IMG/VR virus record: IMGVR_UViG_3300005264_000596
Coordinates: 1-55,977 of that record
Reading direction: 5' to 3' (one strand)
Origin: a virus
Length of the DNA: 55,977 bases
The translations under genes were made by a program, and so were the position numbers. Numbering within the stretch: position 1 is the stretch's first letter; every line of letters begins with the position of its first letter. Under the pieces are notes generated by a model that was not told the DNA's origin, ran no database searches, and was given only the letters and a program-made list of their open reading frames with translations. Below are positions 12,884 to 55,698 of the stretch, in pieces.

Positions 12884-12910
12884 TATATATTTTAAAAGGA
12901 GATGGGTAAG

Positions 12911-14122
12911 ATGATGATTGGTAATTGGATATATGATGAACATAGTGATATGAAAAACAAATATGGATATAAATATATTAGTAGTTATAATAATAATGTA
13001 GCTATAGCTACATTATTAAATGATAAAGAATTTCATATAGGGATTAATGGTAAACCCTTATATAAAGAGAAATATGATAAAGTATTTATGTATAATAATG
13101 GTATAGCTATAGCTATGTTAGATAATAAAATGTTTCACATAAATCTTAAAGGTAAACCAATATATAAAGAAAGATATGATGAAATTTATAATCATGATAA
13201 TAGAAATACTGCTAGGGTTAAATTAAATAATAAATGGTTTCATATAGATCTTAATGGTAAACCATTATATGAAGAAAGATATGATTATGTAAGAGATTAT
13301 AAAGATGGTATAGCTGAAGTTCAATTAAATAATAAATGGTTTCATATAGATCTTAAAAGTAAACCAATATATGAAGAAAGATATGATGAAGTGAATACAT
13401 TTAATGAAAATAATATAACTATTGTTAAATTAAATGGTAAATGGTTTCATATAAATCTTAAGGGCAAGCCAATATCTAATTATAGATATGATTGGATTGG
13501 TGAATATAAAAATAATATAGCTCAAGTTAAATTGAATGATAAAAAATTCTATATAGATGTTAATGATAAACCAATATCTGAAGATAGATATGATGAAATT
13601 TATAAATATAAAGATGGTGTAGCTAGAGCTGAAATGGACAATAAAGAATTTCATATAGGTCTTGATGGTAGACCATTATATGAAGAAAGATATGATTACG
13701 TAAGTGAATATAAAGATGGTATAGCCAAAGTTAGATTAGATGGCAAATGGTTTCATATAGATCTTAAAGGTAAGCCTTTATATGAAAAAAGATATGATTA
13801 TTTAAGTAATTTTAAAAATGGTATAGCTATAGCTATGCTAGGTTATAAGCAATTTCATATAAACCTTAAAGGTAAACCATTATATAAAGAAAGATATAAT
13901 GAAGTGAGTACATTTAATGAAAATGGTATGCCAACAGCTATTGCATCATTAGATAATAAGTTCTTTCATATAAACCTTAAAGGTAAACCATTATATAAAG
14001 AAAGATATGATAGTGTAAGTGAATATAATAAAAATGGTATAGCTAAAGTTAGATTAAATAATAAAACATTTAGTATAGTCTATAATGGTAAACCATTATT
14101 TAGAGGAGATATTATGGAATAG
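12911..14122 (+). CDS. WG-repeat protein 1
   Basis: The 403-residue protein is made almost entirely of about eleven repeats of 34-37 residues, each built around K-W-F-H-I-D-L-K-G-K-P-L-Y-E-E-R-Y-D followed by an acidic turn and G-I-A-x-A-x-L. This matches the WG beta-repeat family, which forms long beta-solenoid or propeller-like surfaces. There is no signal peptide or enzyme domain. I chose the ATG at 12911 because the one at 12902 directly abuts the ribosome binding site. The repeats are very similar even at DNA level, suggesting recent expansion or gene conversion. Two related loci lie at 52709-53406 and 54478-55698. A binding role is likely; the partner is unknown. Confidence 0.85.
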   Translation: MMIGNWIYDEHSDMKNKYGYKYISSYNNNVAIATLLNDKEFHIGINGKPLYKEKYDKVFMYNNGIAIAMLDNKMFHINLKGKPIYKERYDEIYNHDNRNTARVKLNNKWFHIDLNGKPLYEERYDYVRDYKDGIAEVQLNNKWFHIDLKSKPIYEERYDEVNTFNENNITIVKLNGKWFHINLKGKPISNYRYDWIGEYKNNIAQVKLNDKKFYIDVNDKPISEDRYDEIYKYKDGVARAEMDNKEFHIGLDGRPLYEERYDYVSEYKDGIAKVRLDGKWFHIDLKGKPLYEKRYDYLSNFKNGIAIAMLGYKQFHINLKGKPLYKERYNEVSTFNENGMPTAIASLDNKFFHINLKGKPLYKERYDSVSEYNKNGIAKVRLNNKTFSIVYNGKPLFRGDIME

Positions 14123-14136: not shown

Positions 14137-14149
14137 TATATTTTTTTTA

Positions 14150-20427: not shown

Positions 20428-20567
20428 AAATTATTAAAAATGTTCAACGACTATCGAAAGCCATTTACTAGATAAATAGAAATATTTCTAGTTAGAATAA
20501 TAATATATTAATTTATATTAAAGTGAGTAGAGTACACTCTAAGTAGAGTGGAAGTGCAAGGCATCCT

Positions 20568-20675
20568 ACCTAACCTTTAAAATGGTTAAAGGATGAAGAT
20601 ATAGTCTCGACATCTAGGTAAACCTAACCTTTAAAATGGTTAAAGGATGAAGATATAGTCTCGACATCTAGGTAA
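20568..20675 (+). repeat. 54-nt perfect tandem duplication in the intron core
   Basis: Two identical 54-nt units, 20568-20621 and 20622-20675, each carry the P8 hairpin, the AAGATATAGTC S element and the first arm of P9. Only one copy is needed for a working intron core. Confidence 0.92.
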
Positions 20676-20691
20676 TACCTAGAGAAGTTCA

Positions 20692-20869
20692 TAAAAGAAC
20701 TATAAAGGAATAACGAACCTTTATGAAGATACGCATGGAGATGTAGCAATATATGGTGCATTTAAACCAATGGCAAACTGTAAAAGAACTATAAAGGAAT
20801 AACGAACCTTTATGAAGATACGCATGGAGATGTAGCAATATATGGTGCATTTAAACCAATGGCAAACTG
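20692..20869 (+). repeat. 89-nt perfect tandem duplication covering the 3' splice site
   Basis: Two identical 89-nt units, 20692-20780 and 20781-20869, each hold intron P9-region hairpins, the 3' splice site GATACG|CATGGAG and the first 47 nt of exon 2. Joining exon 1 to the first copy gives 22 codons and then a stop; joining it to the second gives the full protein. Confidence 0.92.
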
Positions 20870-41438: not shown

Positions 41439-41748
41439 TCCTATTGAAATATTAAGGGAAGATTATTGTCCAATTTGTAGATCTAAAAGATCTGTAGAGG
41501 CTTATACATTTAATGATAAACCAATACTATATACACTACTTCTAGATAAAATAGAGAGTAATAATATTAATAAGAAAATATTAAATTTAGATTTTAATAT
41601 CTCTTATTTATCATGTAAGAAGTGTAAAGTAAAAACAGATTTACCTAGATATTCTGATAGACACTTACCTTATATACCATTATTAGATGATGGATATGAA
41701 TTATTTATGATAAAATTTAAATTAGATAAAGGAGTTATAGAATGGTAA
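41431..41748 (+). CDS. Small zinc-finger protein
   Basis: The protein has 105 residues. CPICRSKRSV at about residue 13 and CKKCKVKT at about 67 form two CxxC pairs spaced like a zinc ribbon. The ends are hydrophobic and beta-like (DGYELFMIKFKL). It overlaps the upstream gene by 8 nt and the thymidylate kinase gene by 7 nt. A nucleic-acid-binding role is plausible. Confidence 0.55.
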   Translation: MYNPIEILREDYCPICRSKRSVEAYTFNDKPILYTLLLDKIESNNINKKILNLDFNISYLSCKKCKVKTDLPRYSDRHLPYIPLLDDGYELFMIKFKLDKGVIEW

Positions 41749-42650
41749 AATATGTATTTATTAAAAAAGATAAAGCATTTCAAAAAATATTAAATAGGTT
41801 ATTATCTTTAATGAGAAAAAATGAAGAACTTGAATTGAGCATGCTTAAAACTGATATGTATACTAAACTAAGCAATTTGGAAAGGGAATGTATTAATAAT
41901 TTTATAATGAAAGATAATATTGATATTTATGTATATGATTATTATGATATAGGAGTAATAAATGGAATTATTAATAAATTATTTCATATATTTAAAAAAT
42001 ATGAAATACCTGAAGGAAAGTTTATTGTGCTAGAAGGAACAGATGGAATTGGTAAGAGCACATTATTAGAATCTATTAAGGATTTACCTTTCGAAGTATT
42101 ATTAACTAGAGAACCAGGTGGAACTGAAATAGGTGAAAAAATAAGAAAAATTATTTTAGATAATAATAATTTTAATATGTCTGATATAACAGAATTATTC
42201 TTATATTTCGCCAGTCGATCTCAACATGTGGAAGAATTTATAGTACCATGTAGAGAGGCTGGTATCAATATTCTAAGTTCTAGGTATATGGATTCTTCAT
42301 ATGCATATCAATTAGATGGTAGAAGTTTACCTAAAATATATTTAGATACATTAGCTGATATAATATTTGATATGGAAAAATTAAGTGTACCATCTTTAGT
42401 TATATCAGGATATGTAGATAATATAGATATAGTAAATGATAGAATAGATAAATCTAATAGAGAATTAGATAGATTAGAATTATCTGGTGATGTATTTTTA
42501 GATAAAACTAATCAATATTTTAAAGATATGGATGTACTTAGTAATCCATATATGATAAGATATAATATAAATTATCTAAATTGTAATAATAATAAAGAAA
42601 CTGTTATAAATGAATTTAAAGAATTTATATATAATCATATTAAAAAATAA
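41742..42650 (+). CDS. tmk: Thymidylate kinase with N-terminal extension
   Basis: The protein has 302 residues. KFIVLEGTDGIGKSTLL at about 92-108 is the P-loop of dTMP kinase. TREPGGTEIGEKIR at about 123 is the family's DR-type loop, and ASRSQHVEEFI followed by SSRYMDSSYAYQ gives the nucleotide-binding block. The Asp-Arg region VNDRIDKSNRELDRLE closes the pocket. The first 90 residues form a helical extension that normal TMK lacks. It converts dTMP to dTDP, feeding dTTP synthesis with ThyX and dUTPase at the right end. Confidence 0.88.
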   Translation: MVKYVFIKKDKAFQKILNRLLSLMRKNEELELSMLKTDMYTKLSNLERECINNFIMKDNIDIYVYDYYDIGVINGIINKLFHIFKKYEIPEGKFIVLEGTDGIGKSTLLESIKDLPFEVLLTREPGGTEIGEKIRKIILDNNNFNMSDITELFLYFASRSQHVEEFIVPCREAGINILSSRYMDSSYAYQLDGRSLPKIYLDTLADIIFDMEKLSVPSLVISGYVDNIDIVNDRIDKSNRELDRLELSGDVFLDKTNQYFKDMDVLSNPYMIRYNINYLNCNNNKETVINEFKEFIYNHIKK

Positions 42651-42695: not shown

Positions 42696-45608
42696 TTATT
42701 CTTCATATGAATTTATTGTTACTGAATCTCTTACACTAACAGTCTCTTCTTTATCTAATTTTACTTTAATATAATTTATACTATCAGCAAAATGAAATCC
42801 ATAATTTTGAAAATGCTTATCATGTATTAACAAATCACTTATTCCATCTATAATCATAATTTTATTATCTAATCTATCATCTAGTTTATATACAATATTT
42901 ATAGATAATAATTCTGTTTTATATGACTTAAAGAAATCAATTACTTTATATACATAGCCTTTAAGTAGTTCACTAGATAAACTAGGTATACCAGTAAATA
43001 AGAATTCAAAATTCGATGTATCTATATAATTATCTAAAGAAAATAATATCTCAGTAATAGTTTCAGAAATAATATTTGTTTTATTATTTCCTGAGAGTGT
43101 TCTTATATATTCTATATGTTGAAATAATACAGGATCTGATGCTTCTAAGTATCTAGAATAAGTACCAGCAAAAGTACCATCTGGTAAAACAAATATACTA
43201 TTATTCAATTCTGTAACCATTAAAGCATCATATATTTTTTTATATATTCTATACGTTCTAATATCATTAGCATTTACTAATTGATCTGATATGTGATCAT
43301 ATATGTTTTTATTTCTGATAAAAACATCCATTAAAGTTTCAAATGATGATATTGCAGCATCAGGTATTTGAAAATCTTGTATACCTACATCTTCAAATGT
43401 ATAATTATTTTGTCTTAGATATTCTTCTAGTGCTGGTAAATCTGCATCAAAATTGAATCCTTTTATAGTTAATACCTTACTTGTAGTATCCATTATTGAA
43501 TCTGTTATTCCTATATTTTCATACATAAGTACATATAAATATGATATAATGTCTATAAGTTTAAAATATTTATCTTGATTTATATATCTAACTTTTAATA
43601 TTAAATTATTTTCTAAATCTTTATTTGATTTAATGAAATTAAACATATAGCATAATTCAAAACTTAAATTATTCATATCATATATAGTATCTATAGATAG
43701 ATATTTAGATTTAACAATATTAAACTCTTGATCTAAAATAGTTCTTTTAATATCATCATGATCACTATCACCATCCCAATAAGGATCTTGATTGACAATT
43801 TCATCATAATCTAAATGGAATGATGGATTTCTCATATAATCATCAACAGATGATGTTATTGGTACTTTAACAAATTTTAAATCATAATTAGCTTGTAAAT
43901 CTTCTCCAGATTCATTATATCCAGGAATAGTTATTTGAATATTACTATTCTCTTCAGTAAATGTTTCTGATTGTCTTTTTACTTCTATATCTTTAATTAT
44001 AAATATATCATATGCTACACCTTCTTGCCATACTGCAGTTTCTTGTTTATAAATATTTATACCATCTACATTATATTCAACACCTTGTGTTTGAAGAAGT
44101 CCACCAATAAATAATAATATATTATCTCCTACAGTATAATCAGATATATTTATATTAATAGCATCTTGTTCAGTTTCTAAGACACCATTTTGATTTCGAA
44201 CCATAGCTCCTTTAATCATAACCATATCATAATCTTTTCCTAATTCCCAATTAGAATTATCTAATTTAATAATTTTATTACTTAGAATAGTATAATCTAC
44301 ATCTAATGTTTGATAAACACCACCTTTGAAAAATAATATAGTATCTCCATAAATATAATTAGATAATTCTATATTTATTTCTGTTTGGTTAATCCCTATT
44401 GTACCATAATCTAAATAGATATAAGCATTCTCTGGTATGATAATTTCATATGTCCAATCAGCTTCCCATAATCCTTCATCTGTTTTAGATATAACACCTT
44501 GATCTAACTCATACTCAATATATCTAGTTTTAAACAATCCACCAATAAATAATAATATATTATCTCCAATAATAACATTAGAATAATTACCATCAACAAC
44601 TTTTCTATCTTTTAATAAATAATATTTAAATAATTCAATATTATTAAATCCAAATAATGAGCATATATCTACAAGATTTTTTGTTGTAGATTTAAATGCT
44701 AATAATGTATTTAAATTTTTAAGCATAGCTATTTGAAACTTTCTTGGTATAGAATCAAAATAATCTATACCATGAGATTCGAATAAATAGCGTATTGTGT
44801 TGTCATCAAATAGATCACGTTTAATTAATAATTCAGGAGTATTTAATATTACATCTACCATTGCTTGAATCTTAATAAATAATTCAATAAAATTATCATA
44901 ATAATCTGAACCATATTTAAAAGCTTCAGAATATATTGTTTTTAGAGTATACACTCTATTTAATTCTATCTTATTTTTATACATAACACCTATTGAACCA
45001 TATTGTATTGGCGGTATGTATAGTAAAGCAAATTTTTGTGCCTTCCTAGATTTGTATACATCAATTCTAGAATTTTTTAAATAAATTAAATATTTTTTAT
45101 CTGGATATTGATACATAATATTTTCAATAATCCCAAGAGCATCTAATATATCTATTTCAGCATTAGTCATTTCATGTAGATATTTTGTAGTATCTACATC
45201 TGTTACATTTTCAAATATTTTTATACCATCATCACCAATATTTGGTAATCCTGCAAGCATCCTATAATAATTATTTAATTCTTTATAATTATCAATATAA
45301 TATTTACGTTGGGCATCCAATGCCATATCCCTAAATTGTAATGGTATTTTATTTTTATCTGATATACATAAATCTATTATACTTGGATTAATAGATATAC
45401 TTGATAATACTTCATAATTATATTCTAGCATATTGAAAGTAACTGTTTGTTCTACACATGAAACTAATAAATCTCCATTTTTGATAGATTCTAATGTTTC
45501 ATTATTATTTGCAATTGTTTCATTTTTTAATACTGTTCCTTTTATTAATATCTTTAAATTCTCTAATAGTATATCTATCATCATATTATTAGTTTGAATA
45601 GATTGCAT
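42696..45608 (-). CDS. Large tail or baseplate structural protein
   Basis: The protein has 970 residues and no membrane segment. Between about 340 and 560 it carries three copies of a beta module with GDNILLFIGGLFKT-like cores, each with a conserved Tyr and ending in a short W-x-x-x-x-x-Y-(D/E)-(I/M) strand. A fourth copy is in the 244-residue protein at 1315-2049. The N- and C-terminal parts are helical. These features, the size and minus-strand orientation like the other virion genes suggest a tail or baseplate component. It stands alone, separated from the left virion block by about 36 kb in this window. Confidence 0.55.
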   Translation of the reverse strand: MQSIQTNNMMIDILLENLKILIKGTVLKNETIANNNETLESIKNGDLLVSCVEQTVTFNMLEYNYEVLSSISINPSIIDLCISDKNKIPLQFRDMALDAQRKYYIDNYKELNNYYRMLAGLPNIGDDGIKIFENVTDVDTTKYLHEMTNAEIDILDALGIIENIMYQYPDKKYLIYLKNSRIDVYKSRKAQKFALLYIPPIQYGSIGVMYKNKIELNRVYTLKTIYSEAFKYGSDYYDNFIELFIKIQAMVDVILNTPELLIKRDLFDDNTIRYLFESHGIDYFDSIPRKFQIAMLKNLNTLLAFKSTTKNLVDICSLFGFNNIELFKYYLLKDRKVVDGNYSNVIIGDNILLFIGGLFKTRYIEYELDQGVISKTDEGLWEADWTYEIIIPENAYIYLDYGTIGINQTEINIELSNYIYGDTILFFKGGVYQTLDVDYTILSNKIIKLDNSNWELGKDYDMVMIKGAMVRNQNGVLETEQDAININISDYTVGDNILLFIGGLLQTQGVEYNVDGINIYKQETAVWQEGVAYDIFIIKDIEVKRQSETFTEENSNIQITIPGYNESGEDLQANYDLKFVKVPITSSVDDYMRNPSFHLDYDEIVNQDPYWDGDSDHDDIKRTILDQEFNIVKSKYLSIDTIYDMNNLSFELCYMFNFIKSNKDLENNLILKVRYINQDKYFKLIDIISYLYVLMYENIGITDSIMDTTSKVLTIKGFNFDADLPALEEYLRQNNYTFEDVGIQDFQIPDAAISSFETLMDVFIRNKNIYDHISDQLVNANDIRTYRIYKKIYDALMVTELNNSIFVLPDGTFAGTYSRYLEASDPVLFQHIEYIRTLSGNNKTNIISETITEILFSLDNYIDTSNFEFLFTGIPSLSSELLKGYVYKVIDFFKSYKTELLSINIVYKLDDRLDNKIMIIDGISDLLIHDKHFQNYGFHFADSINYIKVKLDKEETVSVRDSVTINSYEE

Positions 45609-45681
45609 TTATCACACCTCCAAAGTTTAACATATATTTATTATATATATGTACATATATTATTTAAAAAGGAGGGATTAT

Positions 45682-46368
45682 ATGAAATCATATAATAGAG
45701 AACAATCAAGTAATATCCCAGGATTAGATTATGAATTACAATCAAATAATCCAGTAGTTTCATCACCATTGAGTCCATATGAATTGCCTTTCTATCAAAC
45801 AAGAGAAGATCTATTAGATATTGATGTTTATAAAAGATTTTTAGTTAATGCTGAAAAAAGATTTAGACAATCTAATACTTATACATTATATAAATCTAGA
45901 TTAATAGATTTAGGTTTAGACAGATGTCAAGTTCATGGTAATATAAATGCCGAAATGGCTACAATTGAAATGCACCATAATGTATTAACTTTATTTGATA
46001 TAACTTACATCATTGCTGAACACATACTTAATACAACAGGATTTATAAGTACTTTTGATTTAGTGTATGCTCTTAAAAAAGTCCATGTTGAAAATAAAGT
46101 TCAATTAGTTATGTTATCATTAACTCCACATCAGCTATATCATAATTCAGAAGGATTATACATACATCCTAGTATGTGTTTTGGTAATTGGATGGAATTT
46201 TTAAAAGAATATAAATATGGAATTAGTATAGACATTGCTAATAAAGTGATAGAATATTTAGAATTATCTATGGATATAGATAAGACATATGATTCTGGTA
46301 TATTAGATTTAGTAGATAAATTAAAAGACTGGAGTGTATATAATGAACGTAGTGGTAAATTCTATTAA
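45682..46368 (+). CDS. HNH-like phage protein
   Basis: The protein has 228 residues from the ATG at 45682 behind AAGGAGGG. DRCQVHGNINAEMATIEMHH and then HNVLTLFDITYIIAEHIL (about 90-130) resemble an HNH core, with HG, ...EMHH and a following helix. LTPHQLYHNSEGLYIHPSM adds further histidines. The last 14 residues (DWSVYNERSGKFY) recur, out of gene context, at 47093-47140. A nuclease or DNA-binding function is plausible but unproven because the metal-ligand pattern is not standard. It starts a three-gene run with the P-loop kinase. Confidence 0.5.
   Translation: MKSYNREQSSNIPGLDYELQSNNPVVSSPLSPYELPFYQTREDLLDIDVYKRFLVNAEKRFRQSNTYTLYKSRLIDLGLDRCQVHGNINAEMATIEMHHNVLTLFDITYIIAEHILNTTGFISTFDLVYALKKVHVENKVQLVMLSLTPHQLYHNSEGLYIHPSMCFGNWMEFLKEYKYGISIDIANKVIEYLELSMDIDKTYDSGILDLVDKLKDWSVYNERSGKFY
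46321..46368 (+). repeat. 48-nt direct repeat, first copy
   Basis: This copy forms the last codons of the HNH-like gene, encoding LKDWSVYNERSGKFY and its stop. The second copy at 47093-47140 differs at four positions. Confidence 0.85.
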
Positions 46369-47096: not shown

Positions 47097-47140
47097 AAGA
47101 CTGGGGTGTGTATAATGAACGTAGTGGTAAATTTTTTTAA
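47093..47140 (+). repeat. 48-nt direct repeat, second copy
   Basis: It overlaps the stop of the P-loop kinase gene and the start of the next gene. In the original frame it still encodes LKDWGVYNERSGKFF and a stop. The ATG of the downstream membrane protein (47115) lies in another frame of this copy. Confidence 0.85.
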
Positions 47141-47585
47141 AGTAATTATCGAGTTTATATCAGAAGATGGATATCTAATTTTTAATTTTGGATTATTTAT
47201 ATTATTAATGGTTATAATATCAAAAGTTCAAGATATTAATAAATATATTGATATTATTTTGGATTATAAATATACTAAATTAGCTATGAATACAGATATA
47301 GAACAATCTTCTAAATCAATAGAATATTTGAATAATCATATTGAAAATATATTTAATGATTATATAGTAACATCATCTGATTTATTAACTAATATGATAA
47401 TAAGTGAAGAAAAAGAACAACGTATTATGAAAGAGGTTACATCTCTTGTAACTAGTAATATGTCTAAATCGTTTGTATTGAAATTATCTACAATTATTCC
47501 TATGGAAGCAATTTCGGAATATGTATCAACTAAAGTATATATATTAATTACATCATATGTATTAGATAATAATTCATCTAAATAA
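47115..47585 (+). CDS. Membrane-anchored unknown protein
   Basis: The protein has 156 residues from the ATG at 47115 (a GTG at 47106 is the other option). The N-terminal region MNVVVNFFKVIIEFISEDG and LIFNFGLFILLMVIISKV suggests one membrane helix, followed by a helical coiled-coil-prone part. Its start codon is inside a 48-nt repeat copied from the end of the HNH-like gene, where the same bases are read in another frame. The ribosome binding site is weak (GGGGTG). Function unknown. Confidence 0.5.
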   Translation: MNVVVNFFKVIIEFISEDGYLIFNFGLFILLMVIISKVQDINKYIDIILDYKYTKLAMNTDIEQSSKSIEYLNNHIENIFNDYIVTSSDLLTNMIISEEKEQRIMKEVTSLVTSNMSKSFVLKLSTIIPMEAISEYVSTKVYILITSYVLDNNSSK

Positions 47586-47700: not shown

Positions 47701-47743
47701 ATACAGTTGTAATAATTTTTATAACTGTATATTATAATAATGA
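47701..47743 (+). promoter_or_regulatory. Promoter motif overlapped by an inverted repeat
   Basis: The inverted repeat ATACAGTT (47701-47708) and AACTGTAT (47723-47730) overlaps the motif ACTGTATATTATAATAATGA (47724-47743), the only copy with G in the TATATATTATA core. The arrangement looks like an operator over a promoter, though it could also be a hairpin. Confidence 0.5.
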
Positions 47744-47790
47744 TATAAGGATTATGTATTATAAAAAATGAAAGAAAGGGAGTGAAATGT

Positions 47791-48042
47791 ATGAGTAATT
47801 TTATTGAGAGAGGAATTGTTAATTTAAAACTACAAATGGGAATTAGATTAAAAGAAAGTGAATTTAGAACTATGATAGATAATGCAATCATTAGAGATGA
47901 AAATATGTATTCTTCTGATTGTATTAAATATGTAGGAAAAGCTAAAAAAGGTGACTATGCATCAAGGATGCATGCTGCACACAATTATATGGTAGCTATG
48001 GATAATGCTTTTGAAGAACAATGGAGAGATTCTGATAAATAG
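47791..48042 (+). CDS. Small unknown protein
   Basis: The protein has 83 residues from the ATG at 47791, behind AAGGGAGTG; a GTG three codons upstream is the alternative. It starts MSNFIERGIVNLKLQMGIRL and has a short charged helix with DYASRMHAAHNYMVAMDNA. No known motif. It is the first gene after the promoter with the overlapping inverted repeat and is followed by a 19-codon ORF. Confidence 0.55.
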   Translation: MSNFIERGIVNLKLQMGIRLKESEFRTMIDNAIIRDENMYSSDCIKYVGKAKKGDYASRMHAAHNYMVAMDNAFEEQWRDSDK

Positions 48043-48140: not shown

Positions 48141-48164
48141 AAGAGTATTATATATAATACTCTT
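48141..48164 (+). terminator. Terminator
   Basis: A perfect 24-nt palindrome, AAGAGTATTATA / TATAATACTCTT, is followed by eight T. It closes the 47791 unit and directly precedes the G-rich island. Confidence 0.85.
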
Positions 48165-48227
48165 TTTTTTATTGTTAATAATAAAATATTATGGTATTAA
48201 CACTATAAGTAATATATAAATTATATA

Positions 48228-48307
48228 TGAGATACTGTTATACAGAGATGCAGGTATACAAAGGTACAGTGGTGCTGGTATGCAGGGATACAGTTATGCG
48301 GGGACAC
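48228..48307 (+). repeat. Ten degenerate 8-nt tandem units
   Basis: Ten consecutive octamers, mostly ending in ATAC, ATGC, GTAC or ACAC: TGAGATAC, TGTTATAC, AGAGATGC, AGGTATAC, AAAGGTAC, AGTGGTGC, TGGTATGC, AGGGATAC, AGTTATGC, GGGGACAC. The consensus is about AGKKATRC. The period is strict with no insertions. The period is not a multiple of three, which argues against coding origin. Confidence 0.75.
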
Positions 48308-48475
48308 ATATGGTAATATATAGAAGAGACATGGTTTTGGGCCGTAGGCAAAGAACAGATAACTAGATGATAACAGAATAGCTAGAGTCGGTAGAGAAGC
48401 AGGGGGGTTTGGGGGGTTTGCAAAACCCACCAAGATAGGAGGAGAGGGGATTCTAAGGGGAGAGGAGGATTTTAT
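48308..48475 (+). other. G- and purine-rich non-coding island
   Basis: The whole gap from 48165 to 48537 holds no convincing gene. After the octamer array, this stretch is far richer in G than anything else in the window. It contains GGGGGGTTTGGGGGGTTT near 48403-48420, a small hairpin GGGTTT-GCA-AAACCC, and purine runs such as GGAGGAGAGGGGATT. A minus-strand ORF across it is Pro/Cys-rich and lacks a ribosome binding site. It could be an origin, a packaging or termini-related site, a quadruplex-forming element or a non-coding RNA gene. Confidence 0.6.
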
Positions 48476-48537
48476 TCATCATAATTGATTAACATCTATT
48501 TAGAAAATATAATTTATAATAGAAAGGAGTTTCAATT

Positions 48538-48810
48538 ATGAGTAATATTGATTTTGTAATAAAAAAAGATCACAAAGGACGAGGTTGGATTATTAAAATA
48601 AAAAATAGAGAGTATTCCAAACATAGTCACTTTAGAACAAAACAAGGTTGTTATAAACTTATGAAATTAATAATCAATAATAAACTACCCAAAGATTCAT
48701 ACTTTCAAGAAGCTGCTCATAGAATACTCTATGAAGAAGAATTTGCCAATTTAATAAATAAAGATAAACAAAAATATTATAATAAAAAAATAAAGAGACA
48801 TATGGCTTAA
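48538..48810 (+). CDS. Small basic protein
   Basis: The protein has 90 residues, MSNIDFVIKKDHKGRGWIIK..., is basic and Lys-rich throughout, and ends KIKRHMA. GAAAGGAG gives the ribosome binding site. The basic charge suggests nucleic-acid binding, but no domain is recognised. Its last codons form one arm of a terminator shared with the convergent gene, and both proteins end in RHMA. Confidence 0.55.
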   Translation: MSNIDFVIKKDHKGRGWIIKIKNREYSKHSHFRTKQGCYKLMKLIINNKLPKDSYFQEAAHRILYEEEFANLINKDKQKYYNKKIKRHMA

Positions 48811-50792: not shown

Positions 50793-51920
50793 ATGACAAA
50801 AGTTAATGTAATCTATGAAAATGCTATGGTCGATATATGCCATGATGCAAGTAAGCTATGCTATAAGAGTAAACCAGAAAAAACACATATAGACAAATTA
50901 AAGTATATTGAGAAAAAAGTAAAAGCTGGCCACGAATCTATCTTGGAACATAGTAATATTATTATATTAGTGACTATTGATGATAGTGATAGAAATTTAA
51001 TTGATTTTATGGAAGTTATGGCTTCTAGCAGACATTTAAATTATAAAATGAAATCAGAAAATGATGTTATCAGTATATTAATTGGAGGTAGTGTTTTAGC
51101 ATATAAACAAATTATTAGAAATATTAAAAATTCTAATAATGTTATAGTAAGAAAATTATTAAATGAATTAGCAACTTGTACATGGAAAGAATTCTTCTAT
51201 GATTTAATTATAGCTGGAATTATGAATCCAAATGAATTTATAGATTCTGAAATAGATAATGGTAAAAAATGCTTATCTCTTAAAGTTGAAGATACAGATG
51301 TCGTAGAATTTACTAATATTGATCCTGTGCAAACAATATTAAATAAAATAAATAAAATTAGTGCTATATATCATGATCGAATTGATATGTTTGAATATGA
51401 TGATATTTTAGATTTAGTAACTATAACAGTATATTTTAAATCTGTAGCTAGAATAATAACACAACAAATTACTAGACATAGAAATGCTATTTCTCAACAA
51501 TCACAAAGATATGTAGAAGAAAAGAATTCATTATTTTTATCACCATTTAGATTTGAAGAAAAGAAAATGGAATTAGATAATATTGATGATATAGAAAATA
51601 ATATTATGTCTACTTATAATAGTTTATTAGATCAAGGAGTTAAAAAAGAAGATGCAAGATATTATTTACCTCAAGGAATAGAATCATCATTATATATGAC
51701 ATTTACTTATAGATCATTTTTTCATTTTCTTAAAGTTCGTACAGATTCTCATGCTCAAACAGAAGTAAGAGAAATTGCTAAAGCTTTAGAATTTACATTT
51801 GATAATTTTGTTAAAGGGATAGATTTAAGTAATGAATATTATTTATATTTAGATCCTAAGTATATATTAGCTGGAGAATTAGAATATAATGTTGAAAAAT
51901 ATATAAATAATATAGAATAA
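50793..51920 (+). CDS. thyX: Flavin-dependent thymidylate synthase ThyX with insertion
   Basis: The protein has 375 residues; ThyX is usually 210-250. GHESILEHSNIIILV at about 49 is the N-terminal conserved block. ITQQITRHRNAISQQSQRYVE at about 222-242 is the ThyX motif (RHR plus a Ser and a final R-Y), although the spacing looks one residue shorter than the common RHR-x7-S. DARYYLPQGIESSLYMTFTY and FFHFLKVRTDSHAQTEVRE give the substrate-binding C-terminal blocks. About 120 extra residues lie between the first block and the motif. It makes dTMP from dUMP using FADH2 and folate, in line with the nearby dUTPase and the thymidylate kinase gene. Confidence 0.88.
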   Translation: MTKVNVIYENAMVDICHDASKLCYKSKPEKTHIDKLKYIEKKVKAGHESILEHSNIIILVTIDDSDRNLIDFMEVMASSRHLNYKMKSENDVISILIGGSVLAYKQIIRNIKNSNNVIVRKLLNELATCTWKEFFYDLIIAGIMNPNEFIDSEIDNGKKCLSLKVEDTDVVEFTNIDPVQTILNKINKISAIYHDRIDMFEYDDILDLVTITVYFKSVARIITQQITRHRNAISQQSQRYVEEKNSLFLSPFRFEEKKMELDNIDDIENNIMSTYNSLLDQGVKKEDARYYLPQGIESSLYMTFTYRSFFHFLKVRTDSHAQTEVREIAKALEFTFDNFVKGIDLSNEYYLYLDPKYILAGELEYNVEKYINNIE

Positions 51921-51997
51921 TAAAAATTCTCTATAATTATAGAACAACTTTATAATAAGGTAAATTTTTGTTTTATAATAAAAGGGAGGAGTATTTT

Positions 51998-52612
51998 ATG
52001 TTTAATTGGAGAAAAACTTCATATAAATTTAATATTACATTATTTATATTTTTTATTAATATAGTATATTTATTAAATTTATTTTTTAATATAAATTATG
52101 CTTTATCAATTACTATTTTAATACCTGTATTTATTTATTTTTCTAGGATACATTTAATGTATGTGATTAATTATAATAAAGATAAATTAACTGGTACATA
52201 TAATAAAAAAATTATATATAAATTAAATGAAATATTATTAATTAAAAATAAAAAAGCTACTGTAGTTTTATTAGATATAGATAATTTCATGAGTATTAAA
52301 AATATGTATGGACAAGAAGTCAGTAATAATATATTAAAAGATATTTCTAATATATTAAATAATGTTATTAGAGATAATGATATTATTATTAGATGGGGAG
52401 ATAGTGAATTTGTAATATTTTATAATAGAATAATGGATATTGATATTATAAAACGAAGACTTTCTAAAACTATATATGATTATTTTAGAGAAAAAGACAT
52501 AGATCTATTTATCAATATAGGAGTATCTGAATATTTTAAAGATGGTATAAATATTGAAAAATTAGTTAATGCCGCTAATGAAGACATAGAAAAGAATAAT
52601 ATTATAGAATAG
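51998..52612 (+). CDS. Membrane GGDEF-domain protein
   Basis: The protein has 204 residues from the ATG at 51998 behind AAAGGGAGGAG. Two transmembrane helices (about 11-32 and 34-56) are followed by a GGDEF-fold domain: DKLTGTYNKKIIYKLNE at about 61, VVLLDIDNFMSIKNMYGQEVSNN (metal-binding Asp) at about 85-108, then DIIIRWGDSEFVIFY at about 127. The active-site signature is GDSEF in place of GGDEF, so activity may be altered or lost. The C-terminal INIGVSEYF fits the last strand of the domain. GGDEF proteins usually make or bind cyclic di-GMP; a phage copy with its own membrane anchor is unusual. Confidence 0.75.
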   Translation: MFNWRKTSYKFNITLFIFFINIVYLLNLFFNINYALSITILIPVFIYFSRIHLMYVINYNKDKLTGTYNKKIIYKLNEILLIKNKKATVVLLDIDNFMSIKNMYGQEVSNNILKDISNILNNVIRDNDIIIRWGDSEFVIFYNRIMDIDIIKRRLSKTIYDYFREKDIDLFINIGVSEYFKDGINIEKLVNAANEDIEKNNIIE

Positions 52613-52641: not shown

Positions 52642-52686
52642 ATCATATATTATAATAATGAGAATAAAGTAATTGTATACTTTATT
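52642..52686 (+). promoter_or_regulatory. Phage promoter motif with leader hairpin (broken WG gene)
   Basis: ATCATATATTATAATAATGA at 52642-52661 is followed by the hairpin AATAAAGTA / TACTTTATT (52663-52686) and an AAGGAGATG ribosome binding site. It starts 11 nt after the previous terminator. Confidence 0.7.
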
Positions 52687-52708
52687 AAATATTATAAGGA
52701 GATGTAAT

Positions 52709-53406
52709 ATGAAAAAGAAAGAAAGATATAAACGTATAACTGAGTATGGAGAAAACGGTATAGCTAAGGCTACATTGGGAGGTAAAGAATTTCATGTAGA
52801 TTCTAATGATAAATTATTATATACAAAAGTATATGATTGGGTAAGTGAATATAAAGATGGTGTAGCTAGTGTAGAGATAGATAATAAGTACTTTCATATA
52901 GATCTTAAAGGTAAGCCATTATATAAAGAAAGATATGATTTAGCAAGTATATATGAGTATGGTATATCCGTTGTTCAATTAGATAAGAAAATGTTTCATA
53001 TAAATCTTAAAGGTGAACCATTGTATAAAGAAAGATATGAATGGGCTTATATGTATAATAATGGTTTAGCTGTAGTTAAATTAGATGGTAAATGGTTTCA
53101 TATAGATCTTAAAGGTAATTAAGTAATTTTAAAAACGGTATATCTATAGCTATGCTAGATTATAAACAATTTCATATAGATAAAAATGGTAAACCACTAT
53201 ATGAAGAAAGATATGAATTTGTGGGGAGATATTTTAATGGTATAGCTAGAGCTAAATTAGATACTAAATTCTTTCATATAAATAAAAATGGTAAACCATT
53301 ATATAAAGAAAGATATGATGACATATATAATTATGAAAATGGTATAGCTATAGTTATATTAGATAATGAATATCTTCATATAGATCTTAACGGTAAATTA
53401 TTATAA
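52709..53406 (+). pseudogene. WG-repeat protein 2, broken by a 28-nt deletion
   Basis: The gene starts MKKKERYKRITEYGENGIAK and has three full repeats and a cut fourth, stopping at 53122 after FHIDLKGN. The sequence after it continues the same repeat protein in another frame (SNFKNGISIAMLDYKQFHID...) to a stop at 53406. Compared with the equivalent repeat in WG protein 1 (about 13774), 28 nt are missing between GGTAA and TTAAGTAA. This removes part of one repeat and shifts the frame. An ATG at 53152 could allow translation of the rear part, but without a ribosome binding site. Confidence 0.75.
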
Positions 53407-53674: not shown

Positions 53675-53717
53675 ATTATATATTATATTAATGAAGATAA
53701 AGTAATTGTACTTTATC
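53675..53717 (+). promoter_or_regulatory. Phage promoter motif with leader hairpin (dUTPase)
   Basis: ATTATATATTATATTAATGA at 53675-53694 and the hairpin GATAAAGTA-ATTG-TACTTTATC at 53696-53717 are identical to those at 14150-14192. The AGAGGAGTGG ribosome binding site follows. Confidence 0.75.
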
Positions 53718-53747
53718 ATTATATTAAAACAGAGGAGTGGTATAAAA

Positions 53748-54455
53748 ATGAAATATAAAGAAATGTATTTAAATGTTAAACCAAAAGATATTATTAAAGA
53801 AAATTCATTATTAGTATCTAATAGTGCGGAGCCATGTATAATTTGTGGCGAACCTACAAAATTTATAGATTTTTGTTTTATAGATTTTTGTGGAGAATGT
53901 CGAATATGTAGCGAAGAATGTTCAAAAGAATTTAATAATATGGTTAATAAATATGAGAAAACTATTGAATATAATAATAGGTCTTTTTCAAAAATTAGTT
54001 TAGAGCAATTTAAAAAGGATAATTGTGATAATGCATTATATAAAGAAATCTATGATGCTATTGTTTTACCAGTGCGTGCAACAAATTTATCTGCAGGATA
54101 TGATTTTTATAGTCCAGATGAATATGTATTAAAAGCAAAAGAAACTATTAAAATTCCTACAGGTATTAAAGTTCAAATGATGGATGATGAATGGCTTGGT
54201 ATTTATATTAGAAGTAGTCTTGGATTTAAATATAATGTTAGATTAAAAAATTCTACTGGTATTATAGATGCAGATTATATAAATGCTAAAAATGAAGGAC
54301 ATATATGGATAGCTCTTTGTAATCATGGAGATAAAGATTTAGTAATTAAAAAAGGAGAGCCATTCGCTCAAGGTATTTTTCAAAAATACTTTTTAACACA
54401 AGATGACATGCCAAAAAAAGATAATAGAATTGGTGGAATTGGATCTACTAATTAA
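53748..54455 (+). CDS. dut: dUTPase with N-terminal zinc-finger extension
   Basis: The protein has 235 residues from the ATG at 53748. The first 100 residues hold a Cys-rich cluster (CIICGEP, then CGECRICSEEC) not present in ordinary dUTPases. The trimeric dUTPase motifs follow: LSAGYDFYS (motif 1), YIRSSLGFK (2), GIIDADYI (3), KKGEPFAQGIF (4) and the C-terminal RIGGIGSTN (5). It hydrolyses dUTP to dUMP, keeping uracil out of DNA and supplying ThyX. The zinc-binding extension may target it to a complex. It starts the last transcription unit, together with WG protein 3. Confidence 0.9.
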   Translation: MKYKEMYLNVKPKDIIKENSLLVSNSAEPCIICGEPTKFIDFCFIDFCGECRICSEECSKEFNNMVNKYEKTIEYNNRSFSKISLEQFKKDNCDNALYKEIYDAIVLPVRATNLSAGYDFYSPDEYVLKAKETIKIPTGIKVQMMDDEWLGIYIRSSLGFKYNVRLKNSTGIIDADYINAKNEGHIWIALCNHGDKDLVIKKGEPFAQGIFQKYFLTQDDMPKKDNRIGGIGSTN

Positions 54456-54477
54456 TATTTTAAAGGAGATTGATAAT

Positions 54478-55698
54478 ATGAAAAATAATAATGGAGTAGC
54501 AATAGCTTATTTAGGAAACAAACAATTTCATATGGATCTTAATGGTAAACCACTATATGAAGAAAGATATGATGGGGTGGGTAAATTTCATGATGGTGTG
54601 GCTATAGCTATGTTAGGATATAAACAATTCCATATAGGACTTAATGGTAAACCGATATATGAAGAGAGATATGATAAAGTTTATGTATTTAATAGTAATT
54701 ATGCTATAGCTGTATTAGGTGATAAATACTTTCATATAGATCTTAAAGGTAAACCATTATATGAAGAAAGATATGACTGGGTGAGTGTTTATAAAAATAA
54801 TATAGCTATAGCTAAATTAGATGGTAAAGAGTTTCATATAGACCTTAATGGTAAACCATTATATAAAGAAAGATATCACCAAATAAGTGATTATGAAGAT
54901 GGTATAGCAACAGCATATCTAGATAATAAAATGTTTCATATAGATCTTAATGGTAAACCATTATATAAAAGAAAATATGACAAAGTATATAGATATAAAA
55001 ATAATTTAGCTGTTGTTAAATTAGGGAATAAAGAATTTTATATAGATATTAAAGGTAATCCAATATCATTTAGAAGATATGATGAAGCATATAATTATAA
55101 AGATGGTATAGCGGTAGTTAGATTAAATGGTAAAGAATTTCATATAGACCTTAATGGTAAACCTATATATGAAGAAAGATATGATAAAATATATAAACAT
55201 TCAAATGGTACTGCTATAGTATTATCTGACAATAAATATTTTCATATAAGTTTAGATGGTAAGCCTTTATATAAAAGAAAATATGATGAAGTATTTGAAT
55301 TTGAAAATGATATAGCTATAGTTGTATTAGATAATAAATGGTTTCATATAGGGTTAGACGGTGAGCCATTATATAAAGAAAGATATGATGAAGTATTTAC
55401 TTATTCTAATAATGTAACCGTAGCTAGATTAGGAAATAAACAATTCCATATAGGTCTTGATGGTAAACCTTTATATGAAGAAAGATATGATCTAATTTAT
55501 AATCATAATGATAGAAATACTGCTATAGTTAAATTAGATGGTAAAGAGTTTCATATAGATCTTAAAGGAAAACCTTTATATGAAGAAAGATATGATCAAG
55601 TAAGTAATTATGAAGATGGAGTATCATTAGCTATCTTAGGAACTAAGATTTTTAATATAGATCTTAAAGGTAATATTGTAGAAAGTTTAAAGGCTTGA
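54478..55698 (+). CDS. WG-repeat protein 3
   Basis: The protein has 406 residues from the ATG at 54478 behind AAAGGAG. It consists of about twelve repeats of 33-36 residues with the core KxFHIDLNGKPLYEERYD, matching WG protein 1 and the broken copy. Repeats are alike at the DNA level. There is no signal peptide, membrane segment or enzyme domain. It follows dUTPase by 22 nt and is followed at 55700 by the next gene, so the three genes probably share one mRNA. A protein- or surface-binding scaffold is the likely role; the ligand is unknown. Confidence 0.85.
   Translation: MKNNNGVAIAYLGNKQFHMDLNGKPLYEERYDGVGKFHDGVAIAMLGYKQFHIGLNGKPIYEERYDKVYVFNSNYAIAVLGDKYFHIDLKGKPLYEERYDWVSVYKNNIAIAKLDGKEFHIDLNGKPLYKERYHQISDYEDGIATAYLDNKMFHIDLNGKPLYKRKYDKVYRYKNNLAVVKLGNKEFYIDIKGNPISFRRYDEAYNYKDGIAVVRLNGKEFHIDLNGKPIYEERYDKIYKHSNGTAIVLSDNKYFHISLDGKPLYKRKYDEVFEFENDIAIVVLDNKWFHIGLDGEPLYKERYDEVFTYSNNVTVARLGNKQFHIGLDGKPLYEERYDLIYNHNDRNTAIVKLDGKEFHIDLKGKPLYEERYDQVSNYEDGVSLAILGTKIFNIDLKGNIVESLKA

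Follow-up and report, generated by a model that had tools for sequence, protein, structure and literature searches.

The island studied here is 247 bases of non-coding DNA, a row of ten octamers followed by a purine-rich tail, situated between a small early gene and the predicted late promoter of the next gene. It belongs to a virus record of 55,977 bases with a G+C content of 24.5%, listed with the IMG/VR linear records; this whole stretch is referred to below as the window. The features of the locus are as follows.

47722-47745, plus strand: early (virion RNA polymerase-type) promoter of the upstream small gene, TAACTGTATATTATAATAATGATA (23.5 bits with the phage's own promoter profile; fits the AR9 early consensus)
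47791-48042, plus strand: upstream small early gene, an ORF of 83 aa from ATG, no family
48141-48171, plus strand: terminator-like hairpin and T-run closing the early operon, AAGAGTATTATATATAATACTCTTTTTTTT (seen in the sequence)
48230-48309, plus strand: ten contiguous 8-bp direct repeats, consensus DKRTRCAG (sequence inspection and period analysis)
48310-48475, plus strand: purine-rich, C-poor tail of the island (G 35%, C 10%)
48354-48365, plus strand: weak late-promoter candidate within the island, AACA-6N-TA, AACAGATAACTA (motif match, without the T before AACA of the most enriched form)
48402-48419, plus strand: GGGGGGTTTGGGGGGTTT, i.e., G6-TTT-G6-TTT (sequence)
48411-48431, plus strand: short hairpin, GGGGGGTTT-GCA-AAACCCACC (sequence and fold prediction)
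48491-48502, plus strand: predicted late (non-virion RNA polymerase) promoter of the downstream gene, AACATCTATTTA, with predicted start at 48502 (AACA-6N-TA/G motif, AR9 late consensus)
48538-48810, plus strand: downstream gene, 90 aa, weak match to phrog_9079 (function unknown, E = 8e-4; profile search), b-b-b-a structure model

The upstream 83-aa protein produced no Pfam or PHROG match and its model is helical with low confidence, and the model of the downstream 90-aa protein reached a pLDDT of 75, with the b-b-b-a arrangement plus helices. An AP2-like fold was considered for the latter and set aside: an AP2 tandem domain was its top PDB match, yet the E-value of 2.6 is not significant and makes this a lead only. 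A type III toxin–antitoxin system was also discarded, the downstream protein having no ToxN-like match. The hairpin closing the early operon, which an earlier note on this DNA had called a strong terminator, does combine an AT-rich stem with a T-run, but it contains just two G-C pairs and remained below the threshold of the terminator scan.

Genome type and transcription map

Gene products of the window include the beta subunit of a phage RNA polymerase, gyrase A and B, an NAD-dependent ligase, a PhuZ-like tubulin, and a thymidylate kinase, and the top matches of the RNA polymerase subunit were those of PBS1 and AR9, with 33% identity. In the window, 13 strong matches to an early promoter of the pattern TTATATATTAT-6N-G were found, scoring 21.9-28.6 bits (e.g., at 14148, 28477, and 53673 on the plus strand and 49934 on the minus strand); the profile was built from nine of them, and the other four were found with it. 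In AR9, the experimentally mapped early consensus is AAATATATATTAT-(6N)-G and the late consensus is AACA-(6N)-TA/G (PMC5312081). The AACA-6N-TA/G motif was observed 16 times upstream of window genes vs 4.8 expected, and spacings of 5 and 7 were not enriched there (1 vs 4.6 and 3 vs 4.1 expected, respectively). Judging from these motifs, it is well supported that the phage employs AR9-like early and late promoter classes, which extends the AR9 promoter rules to a distant relative. The three marks of AR9-like jumbo phages, namely a multisubunit phage RNA polymerase, a PhuZ-like tubulin, and the two promoter classes, were all found, and the window is a 56-kb piece of an undescribed AR9-like jumbo phage distant from the Bacillus phages AR9 and PBS1.

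No early promoter was detected near the island, where the best score was 1.7 bits, and a promoter at 48199 (AACA with a 7-base spacing) was dropped because that spacing is not enriched. The island sits between the end of the early operon and the predicted late promoter, outside the predicted transcripts except that of the weaker candidate at 48354, and this position favours a role at the DNA level without proving it. Nucleotide skew tracks gene direction along the window, with no clear switch at the island.

Several further features of the window were observed. The genes for ThyX, dUTPase, and thymidylate kinase (50793-51920, 53706-54455, and 41742-42650) suggest thymine DNA, as opposed to the uracil DNA of AR9 and PBS1. 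The phage also encodes a protein with a GGDEF (diguanylate cyclase) domain (51968-52612; Pfam E = 5e-21), and the genes at 12902-14122, 52673-53406, and 54403-55698 are made up of repeats of ~34 residues, with a DNA period of 102 bases. The gyrA gene is seemingly interrupted at 20428-20858 by ~430 bases resembling a group I intron (Rfam RF00028, E = 0.01, under the gathering score), a stretch in which segments of 54 and 89 bases are tandemly duplicated, perfectly or nearly so.

The octamer array and the purine-rich tail

The ten units of the array are, in order, AGATACTG TTATACAG AGATGCAG GTATACAA AGGTACAG TGGTGCTG GTATGCAG GGATACAG TTATGCGG GGACACAT. From unit position 1 to 8 the octamer reads D, K, A or G (8:2), T (9/10), A or G (6:4), C (10/10), A (7/10), and G (8/10), with the pattern RYRY at positions 3-6 kept in all ten units. 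Base identity within the array amounted to 0.53, 0.62, 0.60, and 0.54 at lags of 8, 16, 24, and 32, vs 0.09-0.39 at the remaining lags. The period-8 score of 0.578 (shuffles: mean 0.265, sd 0.032) was matched by 0/5000 shuffles, and the score was equalled by 0/2000 when the best of periods 4-12 was allowed, the array being the strongest short-period signal of the window. This bears out the ten in-phase 8-nt units described earlier, whereas their designation as strict applies to the phase, with no unit shifted and no indel in 80 bp, but not to the sequence, since the units diverge from the consensus by a mean of 2.2 of 8 bases (~27%, ~22 substitutions). At unit positions 3-6 all seven substitutions are transitions, whereas transitions make up 5 of the 15 substitutions at the other positions (p = 0.005 by Fisher's test, post hoc), and the unequal decay over all unit positions (p = 0.08) is only suggestive.

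The whole island consists of 34% G, 11% C, 33% A, and 21% T, and it tops all 247-base stretches of the window both in G (or C) fraction and in purine fraction, in keeping with the claim of the earlier note that its composition is unlike the rest. Apart from the two G6 runs reported in that note (48402 and 48411), the window has no run of at least six G or C, and the short hairpin mentioned there is real. No octamers were found in the tail, which carries two AGGAGG strings, neither with a start codon at a usable distance. As also noted earlier, the island contains no credible ORF, its frames of 70 aa (TTG start, minus strand) and 29 aa (plus strand) both being devoid of a ribosome-binding site. 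Coding in any frame, including that of an 8-residue peptide repeat, was rejected, as identity at lag 24 did not rise above that at lag 16 and no start had a ribosome-binding site. Rfam covariance models gave no match to the island, and its folding was no better than that of shuffles (z -1.0 on the plus and -0.8 on the minus strand).

Counterparts in relatives and databases

A DNA search with the island in phages, plasmids, and eight related contigs revealed short, chance-level matches only, those in the eight contigs (G002 among them) spanning just 14-22 bases. The octamer pattern was essentially missing in ten related records, and the G6TTTG6TTT string appeared in 28 viral contigs, in every case in an unrelated context. 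No close relatives came from scans with the single proteins of the neighbouring genes or with PhuZ. At the family level, a scan with the AR9 gp260-like protein returned 36 loci, the nearest being G001 (53% identity) and G002 (46%), and the scan of bacterial genomes with this protein returned no relatives. In G001 (locus L037), homologs of 42696-45608, 45649-46368, and 47106-47585 are found in the same order, after which gene content diverges, and the island is absent from the corresponding place; the G002 locus (L071) stops short of that position. A homolog of the downstream 90-aa protein in G005 has a leader without the island. The search in related phages proposed in the earlier note therefore recovered the element in neither the nearest relative, the eight contigs, nor the ten records; this is no proof of absence, because very near relatives may be left out of the collections. 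From these observations the island emerges as non-coding, real, and unusual, a candidate cis element without known homolog.

Other short-period stretches were observed in relatives. In G002, a degenerate non-coding array of 4.6 kb (29% G, 10% C) occupies L102:13690-18350 (contig IMGVR_UViG_3300035520_000350, ~52.7-57.4 kb) and comprises ~840 units of WNGTN at a spacing of 5, roughly one unit in seven being 6 bases long (mean ~5.17; autocorrelation peaks at 5, 10, 21, 26, 31, and 36). This array, which is placed between convergent genes with terminators within and at its end, was absent from all other loci examined and is more striking than the island of the window. In the nearest relative, G001, ~100 non-coding bases with a period of ~7.4 adjoin a tRNA-Cys gene (L085:11980-12090; contig IMGVR_UViG_3300029305_001599).

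Possible roles of the island and parallels in known systems

We favour, with a rough probability of 0.4, the reading in which the array is a DNA site for a ribbon-helix-helix (RHH)-like protein that binds side by side, i.e., an operator, an origin, or a segregation site. What is established here is that the array exists, holds its phase, has a constrained core, and lies outside the predicted transcripts; that a protein binds it, which class this protein belongs to, and what role the site plays are inferred. The island would be a cis-acting DNA site rather than a gene, with the ten 8-bp direct repeats as its working part; on these contiguous octamers a small DNA-binding protein would assemble as dimers, side by side and cooperatively. 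Situated between early operon and late promoter, the loaded row would then function as an operator, in replication start, or in segregation; the tail with its G6 runs would be flanking DNA only and otherwise lies outside the model. The phase kept over 80 bp through ~22 substitutions and the preserved RYRY core, with transitions only, point to a protein-binding site, and the placement after the hairpin of the early operon and just before the predicted late promoter, as well as the lack of an RNA family and a stable fold, point to DNA as the level of action. The RHH class is preferred to helix-turn-helix proteins because gap-free spacing of 7-8 bp, under one helical turn, is typical of RHH proteins; the ten units in phase go beyond the at least four contiguous 7-8 bp repeats taken to characterize an RHH site. 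The met boxes of MetJ are 8 bp as well.

No RHH protein was found among the proteins of the window, nor next to the array, where the models of both neighbouring proteins (one of low confidence) are not RHH. The RHH_1 profile had no match in the window (56 kb of the genome) or in nine related phages, and the ParA profile gave nothing above the cut-off in the same set. The iteron-like origin proposed in the earlier note can be retained in so far as a protein-binding array is the best reading, with indirect support from its placement, its core, and the parA/RHH parallels presented below, but there is no initiator gene beside the array, as would mark an iteron origin.

Neutral slippage stays a serious rival because the array is not conserved in relatives. 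The island could be an inert, lineage-specific spacer, in which an octamer born by slippage is now decaying beside low-complexity purine-rich sequence, an outcome we regard as possible if somewhat unlikely. It would agree with the lack of the array from the equivalent position of the nearest relative and from related contigs, with the other, unrelated-looking non-coding short-period stretches of relatives, with the occurrence of ATRCAG octamer microsatellites in many viral contigs, and with a difference in decay among positions of only p = 0.08. Transitions alone in the four-base core and 80 bp without an indel speak against such decay, as does the extreme bias of G over C, which reaches into the non-repeated tail. 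Should the island prove inert, it would show that short-period G-rich arrays arise readily in AR9-type genomes.

We are more doubtful of an action as RNA, whereby the octamers would be bound by an RNA-binding protein within a non-coding transcript or a long leader of the downstream late gene. High G+C within an AT-rich genome, the strong excess of purines on the strand carrying the adjacent genes, an interval to the downstream gene devoid of a terminator, and the late-promoter candidate at 48354 are consistent with this, but neither promoter class precedes the array, the G005 homolog of the downstream gene lacks the island, and the Rfam and folding results leave a structured form of the non-coding RNA suggested in the earlier note unsupported. 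GGA motifs were not enriched (8 vs 9.5 expected), which removes a CsrA sponge from consideration. A quadruplex-forming regulatory element on the G6 runs, also envisaged earlier, appears very unlikely: the local G4Hunter score of 2.0 is the maximum of the window (1.2 elsewhere), but neither strand of the island carries a canonical motif (four G3+ runs with loops of N1-7 or even N1-12), a pattern appearing solely when loops of up to 30 are allowed or when two-tier G2 is accepted, and the second G6 run is paired in the hairpin. Lowest of all we place a local assembly error or chimera, a caveat raised in the earlier note, since both flanks fit the phage genome, the late promoter motif follows directly, and the island has no match to other DNA.

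Regarding the proposed protein-binding array, a scan of IMG/VR for the octamer core (query DDATRCAG x3) returned 32 stretches, mostly simple microsatellites or other contexts. In two related contigs (L174 and L184), parA is preceded at 24 nt by four NNATACAG-like octamers and followed by RHH genes (PF21432, E = 3.9e-9 for one of them), and in a third (L188) octamers lie ~130 nt from a 67-aa weakly RHH-like gene (PF19839, E = 0.007); these RHH-linked contigs came out of a search for the octamer motif itself. The ATACAG octamers before the parA/RHH genes (L184:7686-9513 and L174) represent a candidate partition operator or centromere. They share the 8-bp period and the NNATACAG core with the array of the window, but comprise four units only, 24 nt before parA in an unrelated virus, their role also being that of a candidate, and the likeness is to be read as analogy and not as homology.

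We are not aware of any site described for replication, segregation, or packaging in AR9-type jumbo phages, and a brief literature search (titles and abstracts) was silent on the matter, so a discrete array between early and late transcription units offers a concrete candidate. AR9 and PBS1 have the genome type and promoter classes in common with the window, whereas the octamer array was not found in AR9. The G002 array resembles the island as a G-rich, C-poor, non-coding, degenerate short-period repeat of a related jumbo phage, but differs in period (~5.17), motif (WNGTN), unit number (~840), and genomic place, and we do not propose homology between them. It seems improbable, though conceivable, that such non-coding degenerate arrays (8 x 10 here, ~7.4 in G001, ~5.17 x 840 in G002) represent a cis element that recurs in AR9-like jumbo phages and evolves fast, every lineage having its own motif matched to its own binding protein, for genome segregation, replication start, or packaging.

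Among plasmids, the RHH protein Omega/ParB of pSM19035 has a centromere and operator of 7-10 contiguous 7-bp repeats per site (PMC9499535). Like the units of the array, these heptads are short, non-palindromic, and contiguous and lie at promoters in non-coding DNA, but they follow WATCACW in mixed orientation, whereas the array has 8-bp units of another sequence, all direct, and no nearby parA/RHH gene. Plasmid TP228 has a centromere, parH, whose degenerate boxes are coated by ParG (PMC7308502); parH and the island both consist of degenerate short units in an array, those of parH being coated by RHH dimers and separated by AT-rich spacers, whereas the octamers are G-rich and contiguous.
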